Source: an uncultured Aquimarina sp. (GTDB taxonomy: Bacteria; Bacteroidota; Bacteroidia; Flavobacteriales; Flavobacteriaceae). Taken from it: a stretch of DNA of 50,328 bases. The stretch lies in the NCBI GenBank assembly GCA_938011245.1, contig CALLUJ010000021.1:1-50328 (forward strand), read 5' to 3'. The translations under genes and the position numbers were made by a program. This document shows, in pieces, positions 8,228-29,762 of this stretch (position 1 is the first letter of the stretch; every line of letters begins with the position of its first letter). The notes under the pieces are model-generated. The model made no database searches. It was not told the DNA's origin and saw only the letters and a program-made list of their open reading frames with translations.

Positions 8228-9919
8228 ATGTCAGACGATAAGAAAATAATTTTCTCAATGTCAGGGGTTACCAAAACCCATAAAGGAGCCAATACACCTG
8301 TTCTTAAAAATATTCACTTAAGTTTTTTTTATGGAGCTAAAATTGGAATTTTAGGTCTTAATGGATCAGGGAAGTCTACGTTATTAAAAATTATAGCAGG
8401 AGTAGATAAAAATTTTCAAGGCGACGTTGTTTTTTCTCAAGATTATAGTGTTGGGTACTTAGAACAAGAACCTCAATTAGATCCAGAAAAAACGGTATTA
8501 GAAGTTGTAAAAGAAGGAGCCGCAGCTACAGTAGCTATTTTAGACGAATATAATGCTATTAACGACCAGTTTGGTTTAGAAGAAGTGTATAGCGATGCCG
8601 ATAAAATGGAGAAATTAATGGCGCGTCAAGCTGTTTTACAAGATGAGATTGATGCCGCTGGAGCATGGGAGCTAGATACTAAGCTAGAAATAGCTATGGA
8701 TGCGTTGCGTACTCCAGAAGGAGATAAAAAGATAGGACCACTCTCAGGAGGTGAAAAACGTAGAGTAGCTCTATGTAGATTACTACTCCAAGAGCCAGAT
8801 GTATTGTTATTGGATGAACCTACGAACCATTTAGATGCCGAATCAGTACATTGGTTAGAGCATCATCTAGCACAATATAAAGGTACAGTAATCGCCGTAA
8901 CGCACGATAGGTATTTCTTGGACAATATTGCGGGTTGGATACTAGAATTAGATAGAGGAGAAGGAATTCCTTGGAAAGGAAATTATTCTTCTTGGTTAGA
9001 TCAAAAATCGAAACGAATGGCACAAGAATCTAAAACGGCTTCTAAGCGTCAAAAAACCTTAGAACGAGAATTAGATTGGGTACGTCAAGGAACAAAGGGA
9101 AGGCAGACGAAACAAAAAGCACGTTTGAAAAACTATGATAAATTGATGAGTCAAGACCAAAAACAAGTAGACGAAAGGCTAGAAATTTATATTCCCAATG
9201 GACCTCGTTTAGGAACTAACGTTATTGAAGCCCAAGGAGTAAGTAAAGCTTTTGACGATAAATTGTTGTATGAAGACTTAAATTTTAATCTTCCGCAAGC
9301 AGGAATTGTAGGTATTATTGGGCCTAATGGAGCAGGTAAAACTACCATTTTTAAAATGATAATGGGGGAGGAGCAAGCCGATAAAGGAAGCTTTTCTGTA
9401 GGAGAAACTGCTAAAATTGCTTATGTAGATCAAAGCCATAGTAATATTGATCCAGAGAAAACCATTTGGCAAAATTTTTCGGACGAGCAAGAACTAGTAA
9501 TGATGGGAGGTCGTCAAGTAAACTCTAGAGCTTATTTAAGTCGTTTTAATTTCAGCGGAAGCGAACAAAATAAAAAAGTATCTATGTTATCTGGTGGAGA
9601 GCGAAACCGTCTGCATTTAGCAATGACTCTTAAAGAAGAAGGTAATGTGTTATTATTAGACGAACCTACAAACGATTTAGATGTAAATACACTTAGGGCT
9701 TTAGAGGAAGGCTTGGAAAATTTTGCAGGATGTGCTGTAGTTATTAGTCACGACCGTTGGTTTTTAGATCGAATTTGTACGCATATTTTAGCTTTTGAAG
9801 GCGATTCTCAAGTATATTTTTTTGAAGGAAGTTTTTCCGATTATGAAGAAAATAAAAAGAAACGTCTAGGAGGAGATTTAATGCCAAAGCGAATTAAATA
9901 TAAGAAACTAGTAAGATAA
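8228..9919 (+). CDS. ettA: ABC-F translational throttle ATPase EttA
   Basis: 563 residues with two ABC domains and no membrane segments. The first has Walker A GLNGSGKST (43-51), LSGGEKRRVALCR and LLLDEPTNHLD; the second has GPNGAGKTT, LSGGERNRLHLAM and LLLDEPTNDLD. The linker and arm region between them fits EttA, which binds the ribosomal E site and gates the first elongation step according to ADP/ATP. Stand-alone gene with its own terminator. Confidence 0.92.
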   Translation: MSDDKKIIFSMSGVTKTHKGANTPVLKNIHLSFFYGAKIGILGLNGSGKSTLLKIIAGVDKNFQGDVVFSQDYSVGYLEQEPQLDPEKTVLEVVKEGAAATVAILDEYNAINDQFGLEEVYSDADKMEKLMARQAVLQDEIDAAGAWELDTKLEIAMDALRTPEGDKKIGPLSGGEKRRVALCRLLLQEPDVLLLDEPTNHLDAESVHWLEHHLAQYKGTVIAVTHDRYFLDNIAGWILELDRGEGIPWKGNYSSWLDQKSKRMAQESKTASKRQKTLERELDWVRQGTKGRQTKQKARLKNYDKLMSQDQKQVDERLEIYIPNGPRLGTNVIEAQGVSKAFDDKLLYEDLNFNLPQAGIVGIIGPNGAGKTTIFKMIMGEEQADKGSFSVGETAKIAYVDQSHSNIDPEKTIWQNFSDEQELVMMGGRQVNSRAYLSRFNFSGSEQNKKVSMLSGGERNRLHLAMTLKEEGNVLLLDEPTNDLDVNTLRALEEGLENFAGCAVVISHDRWFLDRICTHILAFEGDSQVYFFEGSFSDYEENKKKRLGGDLMPKRIKYKKLVR

Positions 9920-10002
9920 GAACAGCTTTCTCTTATATAGTGATATATGGGATTTAATGCTTATTTATAATTATAGACGAATCATGTTAAGTGATTAAGC
10001 AG

Positions 10003-10029
10003 AAAAAGCTTCCAATATGGAAGCTTTTT
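10003..10029 (+). terminator. Terminator of ettA
   Basis: AAAAAGCTTCC (10003-10013), loop AATAT, GGAAGCTTTTT (10019-10029), followed by more Ts. Perfect stem. Confidence 0.9.
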
Positions 10030-10089
10030 TTTATACGATGGATTATAATTATTATAAAAAATTACGACTACATATGAATAAACTCAATT

Positions 10090-11577
10090 ATGAATTTAGA
10101 TTTTTTTAAAATTTTAGTTTTTAGTCTTTATTTGTTTTCCTTTCAAAGTAACGGACAGATAATAAACTCACAAGTGTTTGATTTAGAAACAAAAGAAGCT
10201 ATACCATATACCATAATAAGTTTTGGAAACAACAAAGGAATCACTACCGATGGTGAAGGTTTTTTTGAAGTAGATACCTCCATAGTAGATCATATAGAAA
10301 TAATTTCATTAGGCTATAAAAGCTTAACATTAAAATTACAAGAACCTATTCCGTCAGAAATTTATTTGTCCAGAGATACTATAATTATGGACGAGGTGGT
10401 AATTACGAATTCGAAATATAGTTTAGAGGAAATTTTAGAGAAGGTTGAAGATAACTTGCAAGTTAACTATATCTCAGATTTTACAGAAAAAGAAATATTT
10501 TATAGACAGAAGGATAACAATAAAATAAATAAACTTAATATTAAATTTAAAAAATCTACCATAAAAGAGTTTACTCAAGAATATGTAAACGACGAATTAA
10601 ATAAAATACCAAAAACGTCTGCTTTTTTTACGGATGTATATGGTTATTTATATAATGGAAACAAAAAATATAAACTAGATATACAAAAAGCAGTTAAGTT
10701 TTATGATACTTACGAGAATAGTCATTTAGACGTATTTTATAAAAGGCTAGAAACTATTTTAAATAAAAATGTCAAAGAAGATTCTTATTTTAAAATTAAA
10801 TCGGGACTATTTAGTATAAAAGCAGATGGTAATCAGGATTTTTTTAAGAATGGAGAATTACTGGATATGCGTAATGAAATGAGTAAAAAAGAGGAAGTAA
10901 ATGACAATTTCTTCTTAACAAATAGAAGGAAAACATTATCTAAAATGCTAGAAAATGTTTTTTATAATACAGGTTCTCCTCTTAATTTTATTAGAAAAAC
11001 GAATAGGTATAGCTTTGAATTAGAATCTACTATGCCTTACAAAAATGATTTAGCATACAAAATTAATTTTTTCCCTAATGGAGGTGAAGATTTTAAAGGT
11101 ACATTTTATGTAAATACTGAAGATTTTGCTATTTTACGTATAGACTATCAAAACGTAAAATATTTAAGAAGTTTTAAGTTGTTAGGATTAAGTTTTAGAG
11201 AGTTGGGAAGAAAAGGAGTAATGTTATTTAAAAAAGGAAATGATGATAAATATTTTTTAAAATATTTGGAACGTACCGAAGAAGATAAATATGGAATTGA
11301 TAGACCTTTAAAAATTATAGAAAAAAACAAACACACTAAAGGAAGAAGAAAACAAAATGAAATTTCTACTGATATTGATTTTGTATCCAATGTGGTAAGA
11401 GAGTTTAAAGTATTGGTTTACGATTCTAAATCCAGTTCAGAAAAGCAATATCAGTTACAGACAGAAAATAAAAAAGAACAACCCAAAAATTGGATTAAAT
11501 ATAATGCAGGCTTTTGGAAGGAAAATTCAAAGGTTTTTCAGTTTTCTTCAGATATAGAAACTCTAAAGCAATTTTAA
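10090..11577 (+). CDS. Secreted carboxypeptidase-regulatory-like (CarboxypepD_reg) protein
   Basis: 495 residues. The signal peptide ends near SNGQ (about residue 23). Residues 24-100 form a CarboxypepD_reg-like beta-sandwich (VFDLETKEAIPYTIISF.NNKGITTDGEGFFEV), the domain seen at the start of TonB-linked receptors. Here no beta-barrel follows; the remaining roughly 390 residues are the extension typical of Bacteroidota proteins of this type. Probably periplasmic or outer-membrane-associated; function unknown. No partner gene adjoins it. Confidence 0.75.
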   Translation: MNLDFFKILVFSLYLFSFQSNGQIINSQVFDLETKEAIPYTIISFGNNKGITTDGEGFFEVDTSIVDHIEIISLGYKSLTLKLQEPIPSEIYLSRDTIIMDEVVITNSKYSLEEILEKVEDNLQVNYISDFTEKEIFYRQKDNNKINKLNIKFKKSTIKEFTQEYVNDELNKIPKTSAFFTDVYGYLYNGNKKYKLDIQKAVKFYDTYENSHLDVFYKRLETILNKNVKEDSYFKIKSGLFSIKADGNQDFFKNGELLDMRNEMSKKEEVNDNFFLTNRRKTLSKMLENVFYNTGSPLNFIRKTNRYSFELESTMPYKNDLAYKINFFPNGGEDFKGTFYVNTEDFAILRIDYQNVKYLRSFKLLGLSFRELGRKGVMLFKKGNDDKYFLKYLERTEEDKYGIDRPLKIIEKNKHTKGRRKQNEISTDIDFVSNVVREFKVLVYDSKSSSEKQYQLQTENKKEQPKNWIKYNAGFWKENSKVFQFSSDIETLKQF

Positions 11578-25041: not shown

Positions 25042-25584
25042 ATGAATACCGAAGCTTTGAAGTAACCTATAGGTAATTTTAAAAATCCTCAAGAATATAA
25101 TAATGAAGTTATCGAAAAATGGATTTCTGAAATTGAGTTATTTCCGAGACGAATTTCAAAGCTTACGGCGTCATTAAAAAACGAACAATTAAATTGGAAA
25201 TACAGACCCAATGGTTGGAATATAAAACAAATAGTACACCATTGTGCGGATAGTCATTTAAATAGCATTATTCGATTTAAACTAACATTAACAGAAGATT
25301 TACCAGAAGTTAGACCTTATTTTGAAGATCGATGGGCAGAATTGATAGATGGAACATCTAATAATATTTCAGATTCGTTGTTGTTAATTAAGGCTTTGCA
25401 TAATAAATGGGTGCTTCTTTTGAGGAATGTAAATTCGGAAGAATTGCTATTAAAGTATATCCATCCCGAGCATGGGAAACAATTTTCTTTGCAAAAATCT
25501 ATAGCGATGTATGCTTGGCATTGTAACCACCATTTAGCACACATACAATTAGCTTTAGAGGCTAAAGGCAGGTATTGTGATTAA
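25042..25584 (+). pseudogene. DinB/YfiT-like metal-dependent transferase with nonsense codon 8
   Basis: From ATG 25042 the frame reads MNTEALK, then TAA (25063-25065), then PIGNFKNPQEYNN and on for 172 more codons to 25584. Family members have a residue such as Tyr at this place (ALKYPIGKF), so the stop is a one-base change. Downstream, IVHHCADSHLNS and WHCNHHLAHIQLA carry the three His metal ligands of DinB/YfiT (bacillithiol-transferase-like) proteins. No ATG, GTG or TTG occurs in frame until 25342, which would lose the first His. It is either a fresh pseudogene or a sequence error; the rest looks unharmed. Confidence 0.8.
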
Positions 25585-25937: not shown

Positions 25938-28900
25938 ATGAAAAAAGAATTTAGCTTTATTGTAAGTTTTTTTATGATTTTTTTGGTGTACACACAAGAA
26001 GTGATACCCGTTGATACTACTATAGATTCTCCTATAAATAGTACTTTTTATTACGGATTTGAAGCTTCAGGGAGTACGGCCAAATGGTCTACAAGTCAAT
26101 TGGACATTTGGTCAGTCTCTACAAATAAAAAAATACAAGGTGCGCAAAGTTTAAAAGTATCTATACAAAGTAACGATTCTGCTATCCAAAGTTTTGTCAC
26201 CCATATACCGTTTCTAAAGTAAGAAGTGCAGCTATTTCTAATACAGAATCTATGATTATCGCAAGTAGTTATGAAGGTAGGGTATTAGGAATTAATTATA
26301 CTGGAGCTATTGTTTGGGATACTGCTTTAATAGCCTCAGGAGATGCGAAGCCCTTGTTTACAGCAAATAACGATCTTTTTTGTGCTGATTTAAACAATGA
26401 TGGAATTGAAGAAGTATTAGCAGCCAATGCCGATGGTGTTTTGTATTGTTTAGATGCAAGAACAGGGGCCTTGCTTTGGGACACCAAAGGAATTTTACAA
26501 ATTAACAATGTAACACCTATGTATGCGGTTTGTGTTGTAAAGAAACAAGGAATACCTTATGTAGCTTGTAGTAACTATGATAATAGTTTGTATTATTTAA
26601 ATGCAAACGGAACATTTAATAAAGAAGTTAAATCTAGTACCTATTCTAGACTTAGAGTGTTCGGAAACTTTGAAAAAACATTTTTTAAGTCAAATGTACA
26701 CATGGCTAATTTTTTAAGACCTATTCCTGTAGATGTAGATGTAGATAACGATAGATTGGGTATGGTAGCAAGAAACAACCATATGCAAACCAGTGGGTTG
26801 TTTTACCAATTTGAACCTTTAGAAAATTTACCCATTCAAATTAATGGAGCAAGAACTAACGATGGAGTAGAAATTGTAGCCAAAGTGCCTGTAGGAGATA
26901 TGCGAGTGGTTAAAAATCCCGTAGATAATAAGAATTTAGTCATTTTTGGAAACAGTGCACAAAGTATTAATTCAGGTTCCTTTACCTTAAATCCTGATAT
27001 AGACAATTACACCTCTGCGACTAATATAGGAACAGAAACCATTAATGGTACATTAATAGATATTAGAGGAGTAGGATATGCCGATGCTTTTGGATACAGA
27101 GTCCCCCAAACAGAGTTAGTAGATACAGCTTCGGGTCAAATTTATGTTACTTTTTTTGGATCTGATGCCATTATTCAAGACCCTACCAATTTATCTAATT
27201 ATAGAAGAATACAATCTACCTATTCTTATAATGATATGTGGAAAGATACCGTAACCGATAGAGTATTATTAGCCGGTAGTCAATCTGGAGGGAGTTGTGT
27301 TCATGTAATTAATACGATGGACAATAGTTGGGAAGATGCCTATGTAAATTTAGTACCTCCAGGTAAAATAACGACACTGTTAAGAAATGTGGCCGCTATT
27401 AAAAACAGCGTAAGCACTTTTGTAAAACCTAGTTATGAAACTCCTGAGACTCCTAACAATGTAATTTTTGCCACAGGGCTTAGTAACAGAACCAGCATAC
27501 CAATAGAAACTTTATTGCTAATATGGAAGCTATAGACCCTGTAAATGGACCTAAAGCGTTAAATAATGTATTTAGTCAACGATACAGAGTTTGGGATAGG
27601 ACTTCGGATATTAGAAGCGTAACCTATCAAAATAAAAGAGATAGGCGATTTACGTATATAGAAGATGGATGTGATCAAACAGCAAATCCCAGATGTCAAA
27701 GAGATTATGATGCAGTAACTACCATAAGAATAGATGCGTTAAATAGCAACCCTAATGGAGTTTCTTTTTGGGGTGGTCACGGAAACGACCCATCTCCATT
27801 TTCTCAACAAGACTTAAGATCTATTATGGAAGCAGATGTTGCGAAAAAGAAAGTATTCATCTATCCAGAATTAGAATCTATTACTGATGAGTTTGGAACT
27901 TTTTTAGATGATTATCTGTTTGAGATAGCAGATACTATTAAAACCTATAACTTAAATACCAACATGCATATTAGAACCAAACATACGTTTTGGCAAGGGT
28001 CTATTCATTTACCTATTTGGAATCGAGTATTGGCAGGAGATTATGCAGATATTTTTGTGCCTACTATGGAAGAAACCACCGATAAATCTATGGAATTAAG
28101 TGTAGCGGCAAGAATGGGGGTATGGATGTCAGGTGTTTTTAATCATTGGGGAGTTCGTAGTGTAAACGATAATTTGTCTTACGATAGAAGTAGACAACAC
28201 TCTCATGCACAAGCTAAAAACCACGTATTAAGACAAACAGTGTACTCATTAGCGAATGGAGCAACACATTTAAATAATTTTGATACGTTTGATACCGAGG
28301 TAATGAGACTTCTTTTTGAAATGGTGGCTAAAGGTGTAATTTATGTACCTCAAAAAAATGAATTGTTAAGTATTTCTCCTGTACACTTGAGTATTGTAAA
28401 TCCAGATTTAGATTACATCCACAAATCATCTTCTGTTAAGTTTACTACTAATTTTGATAAAAATATTGGAGAAGAAAGATTTGTTTTTGGGAGATTAAGT
28501 GCAGCCTTTGCAGGAGCTAAAAATACGGAATACGATTTTTCTACCTATGCAGCAGGTGCGAATGATAGAAGGCTGAATTTTTTACCGAGATACAATCACG
28601 GAATGGTATTAGTTACACCTCCTAATGTTGATGGAGTTAATAAACCTACGAGAGGACTTTTAGAAGATCATATGCACCCTTTTTATACCGGTAAAACCAA
28701 AGAATATTTTACAGACGGTAAAAAATACTATTCAGATATCAATCAATCGTCGTCTTTTGAGCCAGATAGTAGTTATTATTTAACCATTAAAAACGATATT
28801 GAAACCAGTGCAAACTTATTGCCTATTACCGTATCTGGGGATGTTTCGTGGGTGGTTGCACAAACCGATAAAAATCATTTAAGATTAACATTAATAGATA

Positions 28901-29088
28901 ACGGGTATATCAATCCTAAAGGAGGAGTTGCCAAAGTTAAAATTAACGCTTCGGAAATTAATGTTAATAATATTAGTAATATTTTGAATTCAGGAGAATC
29001 GTATAGTGGGGCTTCAGAATACGATATAACAATACCTTTAGGTGGTTTCAAATTCTTTGATGTTACATTGAATAACGAATATTTCTAA
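25938..29088 (+). pseudogene. Secreted beta-propeller glycosidase, lambda-carrageenase-like (GH150?), two frameshifts
   Basis: ATG 25938 gives a signal peptide (MKKEFSFIVSFFMIFLVYTQ) and the start of a mature protein to a stop at 26222. One frame over, the protein continues (HPYTVSKVRSAAISNTES...) as a PQQ/FG-GAP-like propeller (GRVLGINYTGAIVWDTA; DLNNDGIEEVLAANADG) to 27535, then shifts again (NRNFIANMEAIDPVNGPK...) into a 500-residue domain (WGGHGNDP, FIYPELESITDEFG, MHIRTKHTFW, FNHWGVRS) up to 29088. Both breaks fit single-base losses, near 26200 and 27500. Restored length is about 1,050 residues. The architecture (N-terminal propeller, large C-terminal domain, about 100 kDa) matches what is known of GH150 lambda-carrageenase; this is from memory of that family and is tentative. 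It lacks a T9SS tail. Confidence 0.6.
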
Positions 29089-29105: not shown

Positions 29106-29762
29106 ATGAAAAATTATCTATACATAGCAATACTTATGTGCTGTTCTTTTTTTAAAATAAATGGACAAACAGCTATTCGTAGCAATATAAATACGCCAAG
29201 TTCTAGATATACATTAGAGGCGAATACAGATTACGATATTTATTTAAAAGCTTATGTAGATGCTAGTGCTACTATAGAAGGTTTTACCACAACTTTTAAT
29301 AATGAATTTCCTTTAAAATGGGAATTTGATAAGTTTGAAAAAGATAAATGGGTGTTATTAAAACATAGTTTTAAAACCACTAGTGAATTAGTAAACCCAA
29401 TACTTCAAATAGAATTATTATCTAATAGTTTACTAGAAGAAGGTACAGGAGTATTTTATATGGACGATATTAGAATTGTTGAAAATAAGACACTAAACAT
29501 ACAGCCTGTATCTTTTGATAATGAAATTAAAGTTTATCCAAACCCAGTAAAAGATAAAATACTATATATAGAAAATTTAAAAAATATAGAGAATATTACA
29601 CTATATAACCTAAATGGAAGCGTAATAACAACAGAACTAGACTTAAAAGAAATAAAAGATGGAGTAGAAGAATTCGATTTAAGCTTTTTAAAAAGAGGCG
29701 CTTACATCCTAAAAATTACTACTCAAAAAGCTAAAACGTTTAGAAAAGTTATTATAGATTAA
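29106..29762 (+). CDS. T9SS-sorted protein with a carbohydrate-binding-like domain
   Basis: 218 residues. The signal peptide ends near INGQ (about 20). Residues 25-130 look like a jelly-roll module (SSRYTLEANTDYDIYLKAYV...GVFYMDDIRI), the style of family 4/16/22 carbohydrate-binding domains. The C-terminal 75 residues are a type A sorting domain (VYPNPVKDKI; ITLYNLNGSVI; LKRGAYILKITTQKAKTFRKVII), so it should go to the cell surface or medium by type IX secretion. It starts 17 bases after the polysaccharidase and probably was its partner. No catalytic domain is seen. Confidence 0.8.
   Translation: MKNYLYIAILMCCSFFKINGQTAIRSNINTPSSRYTLEANTDYDIYLKAYVDASATIEGFTTTFNNEFPLKWEFDKFEKDKWVLLKHSFKTTSELVNPILQIELLSNSLLEEGTGVFYMDDIRIVENKTLNIQPVSFDNEIKVYPNPVKDKILYIENLKNIENITLYNLNGSVITTELDLKEIKDGVEEFDLSFLKRGAYILKITTQKAKTFRKVIID

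Follow-up and report, generated by a model that had tools for sequence, protein, structure and literature searches.

Lambda-carrageenases of family GH150 are the closest described systems for the locus reported here. The family was defined by cglA, and two GH150 genes are reported in strain S85 (PMC6262041). CglA and its ortholog are reported to carry out endo-hydrolysis of beta-1,4 links, and GH150A and GH150B of Pseudoalteromonas distincta are described as lambda-carrageenan-active, with three predicted domains, no crystals and a conserved patch on the predicted model (PMC12549532). Degradation of lambda-carrageenan is also reported for OUC-CglA of Maribacter vaceletii, in a study in which the propeller-like domain was deleted (PMC11202985), and a GH150 is reported in a cattle Bacteroides locus (PMC13168452). 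T9SS export is described as dependent on the secreted protein's own C-terminal domain (PMC4804311). Within the titles and abstract openings of the open-access literature, we found no split module or partner gene for GH150.

Analysis of the window, the whole 50,328-nucleotide stretch from an uncultured Aquimarina sp., allowed us to compare a damaged GH150-type gene with these enzymes. It has the same three-part architecture as CglA of Pseudoalteromonas carrageenovora, GH150A and GH150B of P. distincta U2A and OUC-CglA of M. vaceletii. It differs from these known GH150 enzymes in belonging to a divergent clade, in carrying the first part of a jelly-roll (half1) ahead of the propeller, and in having a separate T9SS-tailed partner gene; a GH150 of M. 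vaceletii, at 8675-11479 of locus L057, shows no half1. The window gene is probably the enzyme half of a two-gene secreted divided-domain unit, broken by two frame breaks. The features of the region are as follows.

25042..25584, forward strand: DinB_2-family gene (71 bits) whose frame is interrupted once, by a stop at codon 8 (25063-25065)
25938..26222, forward strand: first frame of the broken GH150 gene, with signal peptide (inspection) and, N-terminally, the first part of a jelly-roll
26040..26195, forward strand: half1, CBM4-like jelly-roll first part, columns 1 to about 50 of 159; E 1.4e-11
26190..26252, forward strand: first frame-change stretch; coding-model switch at 26197
26252..27535, forward strand: second frame, lambda-carrageenase beta-propeller; Beta-prop_CGLA, 305 bits
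27490..27535, forward strand: second frame-change stretch; coding-model switch at 27512
27523..29088, forward strand: third frame, with CGLA_M at 27592-28734 and CGLA_C at about 28828-29064 (Pfam)
29106..29762, forward strand: partner gene, open frame, 218 aa, with signal peptide (inspection), half2 and Por_Secre_tail
29190..29489, forward strand: half2, rest of the jelly-roll, columns about 60 to 157 of 159; E 5.2e-26
29532..29756, forward strand: Por_Secre_tail, T9SS C-terminal sorting domain; 50.2 bits, cut-off 27

The E-values for half1 and half2 come from profiles built without the window sequence. Neither the partner gene nor the broken DinB-type gene upstream was part of the initial annotation, which had read the three GH150 frames as one interrupted protein of about 1,050 residues with one-base deletions near 26200 and 27500. 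This reading agrees with our results: the pieces match successive parts of one GH150-type protein, and in a three-periodic coding model, for which 372 kb of this genome served as training data, the frame changes at 26197 and 27512, each change being flanked on both sides by coding sequence. By coordinate arithmetic both frame changes run in the same direction, the one expected from the loss of a single base apiece. The length estimate is right because the relatives in L018 (Flavivirga rizhaonensis, 8420-11563) and L019 (Polaribacter sp. Z022, 8414-11548) are each encoded in one frame and measure 1,047 and 1,044 aa. The window copy, lacking an uninterrupted reading frame, is classed here as a broken GH150 gene and not as a working enzyme.

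Family membership was tested with the Pfam CGLA models. The second frame matches Beta-prop_CGLA over positions 1-316 of 316 with the score listed above, and the third matches CGLA_M over positions 2-367 of 370 (455 bits) and CGLA_C over positions 1-78 of 79 (91 bits), with the beta-propeller, middle and C-terminal domains in order on separate frames and cut-offs near 27 bits. The GH150 architecture proposed initially is borne out by these three domains, which score far above cut-off, by relatives whose sequences are 68 and 65% identical to the third piece, and by conserved residues. Its accompanying description of a family with few known members does not hold, since a single scan across 84,980 species yielded 106 stretches coding for a relative. 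GH150 was found in 14 of 397 genomes sampled from the same taxonomic family, CGLA_M in 3 of the 52 genomes of the genus sample (the window's own included), and two plasmid records match GH150, at four places. In the PDB, no sequence matched the third piece and the second had weak matches only; the family profile leads to propeller chains.

The downstream domains had been described as conserved. With conserved columns defined by an identity of 95% or more across 28 relatives, the third piece retains 94/94 positions and the second 41/43, and leave-one-out on the same measure gives 92-100% for the 28 relatives themselves. Because near-invariant residues are kept, and with no third break inside the GH150 gene in the frame scan, the earlier view of the damage as recent or artefactual fits.

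Three lesions lie within 2.5 kb, namely the two GH150 breaks and the stop in the DinB-type gene, which suggests either that this region is decaying or that it was poorly assembled. It is quite possible that local errors of sequencing or assembly created the frame breaks and that the GH150 gene is intact in the organism itself. The undiminished set of near-invariant positions in the third piece and the open frame of the partner gene are in keeping with such an error, and the lesion in the adjacent upstream gene could mark a single poor stretch of assembly. Against it, a frame-switch scan of 372,506 of the genome's 2,994,847 bases, counting ATG, GTG and TTG as starts, found 76 same-strand switches, and at 67 a start codon in the new frame lay no more than 30 bases away; this evidence is weak because the criterion also passes the second break of the GH150 gene itself, which is counted among the 67. 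Seven suspicious switches on four contigs were inspected, those in L101, L102, L112, L098 and L107 lying outside this set, and one of the seven (L104, near 4,254) resembles a possible break. The others comprise three in L099 and one in L110 within effector-like/lipoprotein arrays, a TTG start in L095 near 13,734, and a fragment by the contig end in L095 near 546. On this weak evidence the assembly does not look generally frame-broken. A separate scan for start-less coding behind a stop returned 12 places, with the DinB-type gene second by score. Programmed ribosomal frameshifting at both changes, leaving a gene functional as it stands, would account for the good conservation of the frames downstream and was rejected as highly improbable, because the relatives in L018 and L019 read through in a single frame and the other GH150 genes examined have open frames of 882-1,087 residues. 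As a side observation, the arrays in L099 (contig C6 of the window's genome) and L110 alternate short effector-like fragments with small lipoprotein genes and on inspection resemble polymorphic effector and immunity cassettes.

The DinB-type gene is a second broken gene, outside the proposed two-gene unit. At the position of its codon-8 stop, the three relatives that could be read, out of 11 loci tried, have phenylalanine in an open frame; the matches of two DinB relatives (G017 and G003) contain a TAA within the match. No empty insertion site was found in the three of 11 relatives' DinB loci that were read, where the downstream neighbours differ from those of the window. The window gene has among its neighbours an M1 peptidase, the DinB-type gene, a tRNA-Ser, a CAAX protease, an FtsX-like protein and housekeeping genes, and this is not an obvious carrageenan locus. 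The same genome also has one GH150 gene in an open frame on each of contigs C49 (945 aa) and C63 (1,033 aa), the C63 protein ending on inspection in a T9SS-type tail, and it encodes SprA.

In a tree of 104 GH150 proteins, built by a quick method and with CglA of P. carrageenovora left out, the window protein forms a divergent clade of three with those of L018 and L019 (SH-aLRT 100, stem 1.25), apart from the GH150 of M. vaceletii. Because the window gene sits in this divergent clade, lambda-carrageenan is the presumed substrate of the window-type enzyme from family membership. At 351 conserved columns the window protein has 15 private changes, compared with 8 in L019 and 5 in L018; as a sign of relaxed selection this excess shows little, because the window protein also has the longest terminal branch in this clade (0.27, against 0.22 and 0.16).

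The partner gene starts 17 bases after the GH150 stop and encodes a signal peptide, about 100 residues of half2 and the Por_Secre_tail. The roughly 50 residues ahead of the window propeller that make up half1 are absent from most GH150 proteins. The same two-gene unit, with both genes open, is present in L018 and L019, and the pattern of enzyme and partner is repeated in other GH150 loci scanned. Several of the downstream partners have the jelly-roll once in full as well as in part, which made a 159-column profile of the intact domain possible. Because profile-profile alignment (hhalign, one template) places half1 on columns 1-49 of this profile (probability 96.5) and half2 on columns 60-157 (probability 98.8), the GH150 N-terminus and the downstream gene are, at the level of sequence, complementary parts of one domain. 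Elsewhere the half profiles hit domains that are whole, whereas in the GH150 pairs each of two polypeptides has one part. The Pfam model CBM_4_9 stays below its cut-off of 25.9 bits in the L031 partner (17.3 bits) and in the L092 partner (16.6 bits), with no match in three other partners searched.

To gauge the pairing, we used 94 near-full-length GH150 genes in 76 named-genome loci, with four partial or divergent ones set aside. Half1 is present in 17 of the 94, and a half2 gene lies within 300 bases of 15 of these 17 as against 0/77 of the genes without half1 (Fisher 1.5e-15, a partly circular P value, most of the counted loci having supplied seeds for the profiles); for three of the 77, less than 600 bases of downstream DNA are available and a partner could be missed there. 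The half2 gene follows the enzyme in 14 of the adjacent pairs and precedes it in one (L092). The two half1 genes with no adjacent half2 gene are those of L023 and L071, and L139, from the family sample, has a half1 GH150 that scores like L071 and no adjacent half2 in the available DNA. Some half1 scores are weak (L061, E 0.014; L055, E 6.8e-5), and half1 is only about 50 residues long. Weak half1 matches such as L184, L187 and L189 (E 1e-5 to 1e-3) have no half2 match.

A further search was added because the profiles were largely seeded from counted loci. In the 397 family genomes, all seven half2 matches below E 1e-25 adjoin a half1 GH150; four of these pairs lie outside the profile seeds (two in G432, one in G287 and the window), and the other three score like seed loci. 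In 395 genomes of the class, half2 matches below E 1e-10 comprised the window's own and two weaker ones (7.5e-13 and 1.6e-11). Half1 matches below E 1e-6 other than GH150 or cut GH150 frames have the rest of the domain on the same chain in 7/7 cases. As judged from the profile or from the residues ahead of them, the weaker half2 matches in the loci retrieved belong to complete domains, mostly C-terminal in longer proteins or alone in proteins of 166-187 residues, and include one frame cut by the locus edge (L169). In their sequence features the longer proteins with a complete jelly-roll resemble GH16 enzymes or SusE/F-like lipoproteins. No convincing single chain with both jelly-roll parts around GH150 was found among the matches listed for L018-L093, nor, in the loci of the half1 search, a convincing case of half1 ahead of some other enzyme on a chain that lacks the remaining part. 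The 21 half1 GH150 proteins fall in several places of the 104-protein tree, whose well-supported branches force at least three changes. As judged from the genes themselves, these counts strongly support the half1-half2 pairing and demonstrate its recurrence in many Bacteroidota.

Predicted structures were obtained for one partner and one enzyme. AlphaFold2 gave the L031 partner (384 aa) a mean pLDDT of 76, with its half2 well folded (block means 84-93 over residues 201-300) and a strand sequence that on inspection resembles that of the complete domain. Foldseek placed tandem CBM22 modules first for this model (E 3.4e-7, TM 0.26). With VIA-align, the intact domain aligned to the CBM4 structure 4mgs (Z 11.5, rmsd 2.8, 133 aligned), the alignment running through a low-confidence stretch and part of the domain having pLDDT below 50, and the tail aligned to the T9SS sorting domain 8glk_D (Z 11.5, rmsd 1.6, 72 aligned). 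The complete copy in this partner is thus predicted to be a jelly-roll like the CBM4 modules, of which BiXyn10A CBM1 and Rhodothermus CBM4-2 are described examples. For the L019 enzyme (1,044 aa) the mean pLDDT was 83 with a confident core, and residues 21-80, which take in most of half1, scored poorly (block means 38-58). In the intact L031 domain the corresponding part is likewise poorly predicted, and the low score of half1 is therefore no evidence of disorder. VIA-align of the L019 model returned propeller matches only and is uninformative on the middle domain. Foldseek placed the GH98 endoxylanase 9h6f first for the same model (E 2e-11, TM 0.30), a match that may offer a lead to the catalytic residues of GH150.

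The window partner has the features of T9SS cargo, with its signal peptide (by inspection only), its Por_Secre_tail at 50.2 bits and SprA in the genome, and the tail of the L031 partner has a predicted fold like that of a T9SS C-terminal domain. Usual T9SS cargo has the tail on the same chain, as the C63 GH150 does on inspection, whereas the half1 enzyme has none: Pfam found no C-terminal sorting domain on the window GH150 pieces. One possible explanation for the divided domain, which we advance tentatively, is that assembly in the periplasm completes the binding module and lends the enzyme a T9SS tail, so that a tailless cargo is exported as a heteromeric complex. Each protein would cross the inner membrane by its own signal peptide and then lose it; half1 sits close behind the enzyme signal peptide, and half2 does likewise in 7/15 partners, standing in the other 8/15 behind a complete copy of the domain. 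The two parts would fold together in the periplasm into one carbohydrate-binding jelly-roll, joining the tailless enzyme to the partner with the sorting tail, and the T9SS would then export or display the complex, which may also bind the polysaccharide it acts on. That the parts assemble, leave the cell together and bind substrate is inferred, and we assume that a protein with no tail can be exported in a complex with one that has it. In the window's genome, the partner would be left without a full-length enzyme from this locus, with the two other GH150 genes remaining.

Two other explanations concern the same pair of genes. The partner could be a surface anchor or substrate-binding subunit, with the enzyme exported by other means and the parts meeting only outside the cell, which we consider unlikely. 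Many other GH150 enzymes stand without such a partner, 77 of the 94 having neither half1 nor a partner, and a crude regular expression, which misses some cases, finds a lipobox in 13 of these 77 and a tail in two; yet the same expression finds neither in any of the 17 half1 enzymes, and no alternative export signal was seen in them, although such an absence weighs little. More doubtful still is that the jelly-roll parts are leftovers of domain shuffling that never assemble, the partner being an independent T9SS-exported protein. The two half1 genes that lack an adjacent partner, and the complete jelly-roll that the partner itself has in 8 of the 15 adjacent pairs, would suit such leftovers, but half1 and half2 are each conserved, and they remain together in GH150 clades that lie apart in the tree. 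Leftovers would also be expected to decay independently, and the mean column identity of half1 (48%, 12 sequences) is near that of whole GH150 (51%, from a different set of 28 sequences).

If the proposed periplasmic assembly is true, a domain shared with a tailed partner would be a way of export for tailless enzymes, the divided domain would be a natural two-part assembly tag, and the partner would add a missing subunit to one class of GH150 enzymes in carrageenan breakdown. The window copy alone is, as a broken gene, ordinary in kind and of modest interest; the part worth pursuing is the two-gene divided domain.

Several further observations were made in the loci compared. The two-gene unit at 8420-12218 of L018 and 8414-12203 of L019 lies between the same neighbours in two genera, on inspection an AAA-type ATPase-like protein upstream and a protein of 349-353 aa downstream, and the flanking stretch that was read has no evident carrageenan genes. 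A divergent GH150-like group (L009, L010, L131-L135 and L140) has proteins of about 880-910 residues that score about 190-225 bits with CGLA_M, often in genomes that also have a canonical GH150. Small proteins of 166-184 residues consisting of one complete jelly-roll are encoded in L048 (7948-8448), L053 (7950-8450), L031 (4910-5452) and L032 (3356-3910), 95-155 bases upstream of GH150 genes without half1, and are candidate free-standing carrageenan-binding proteins.
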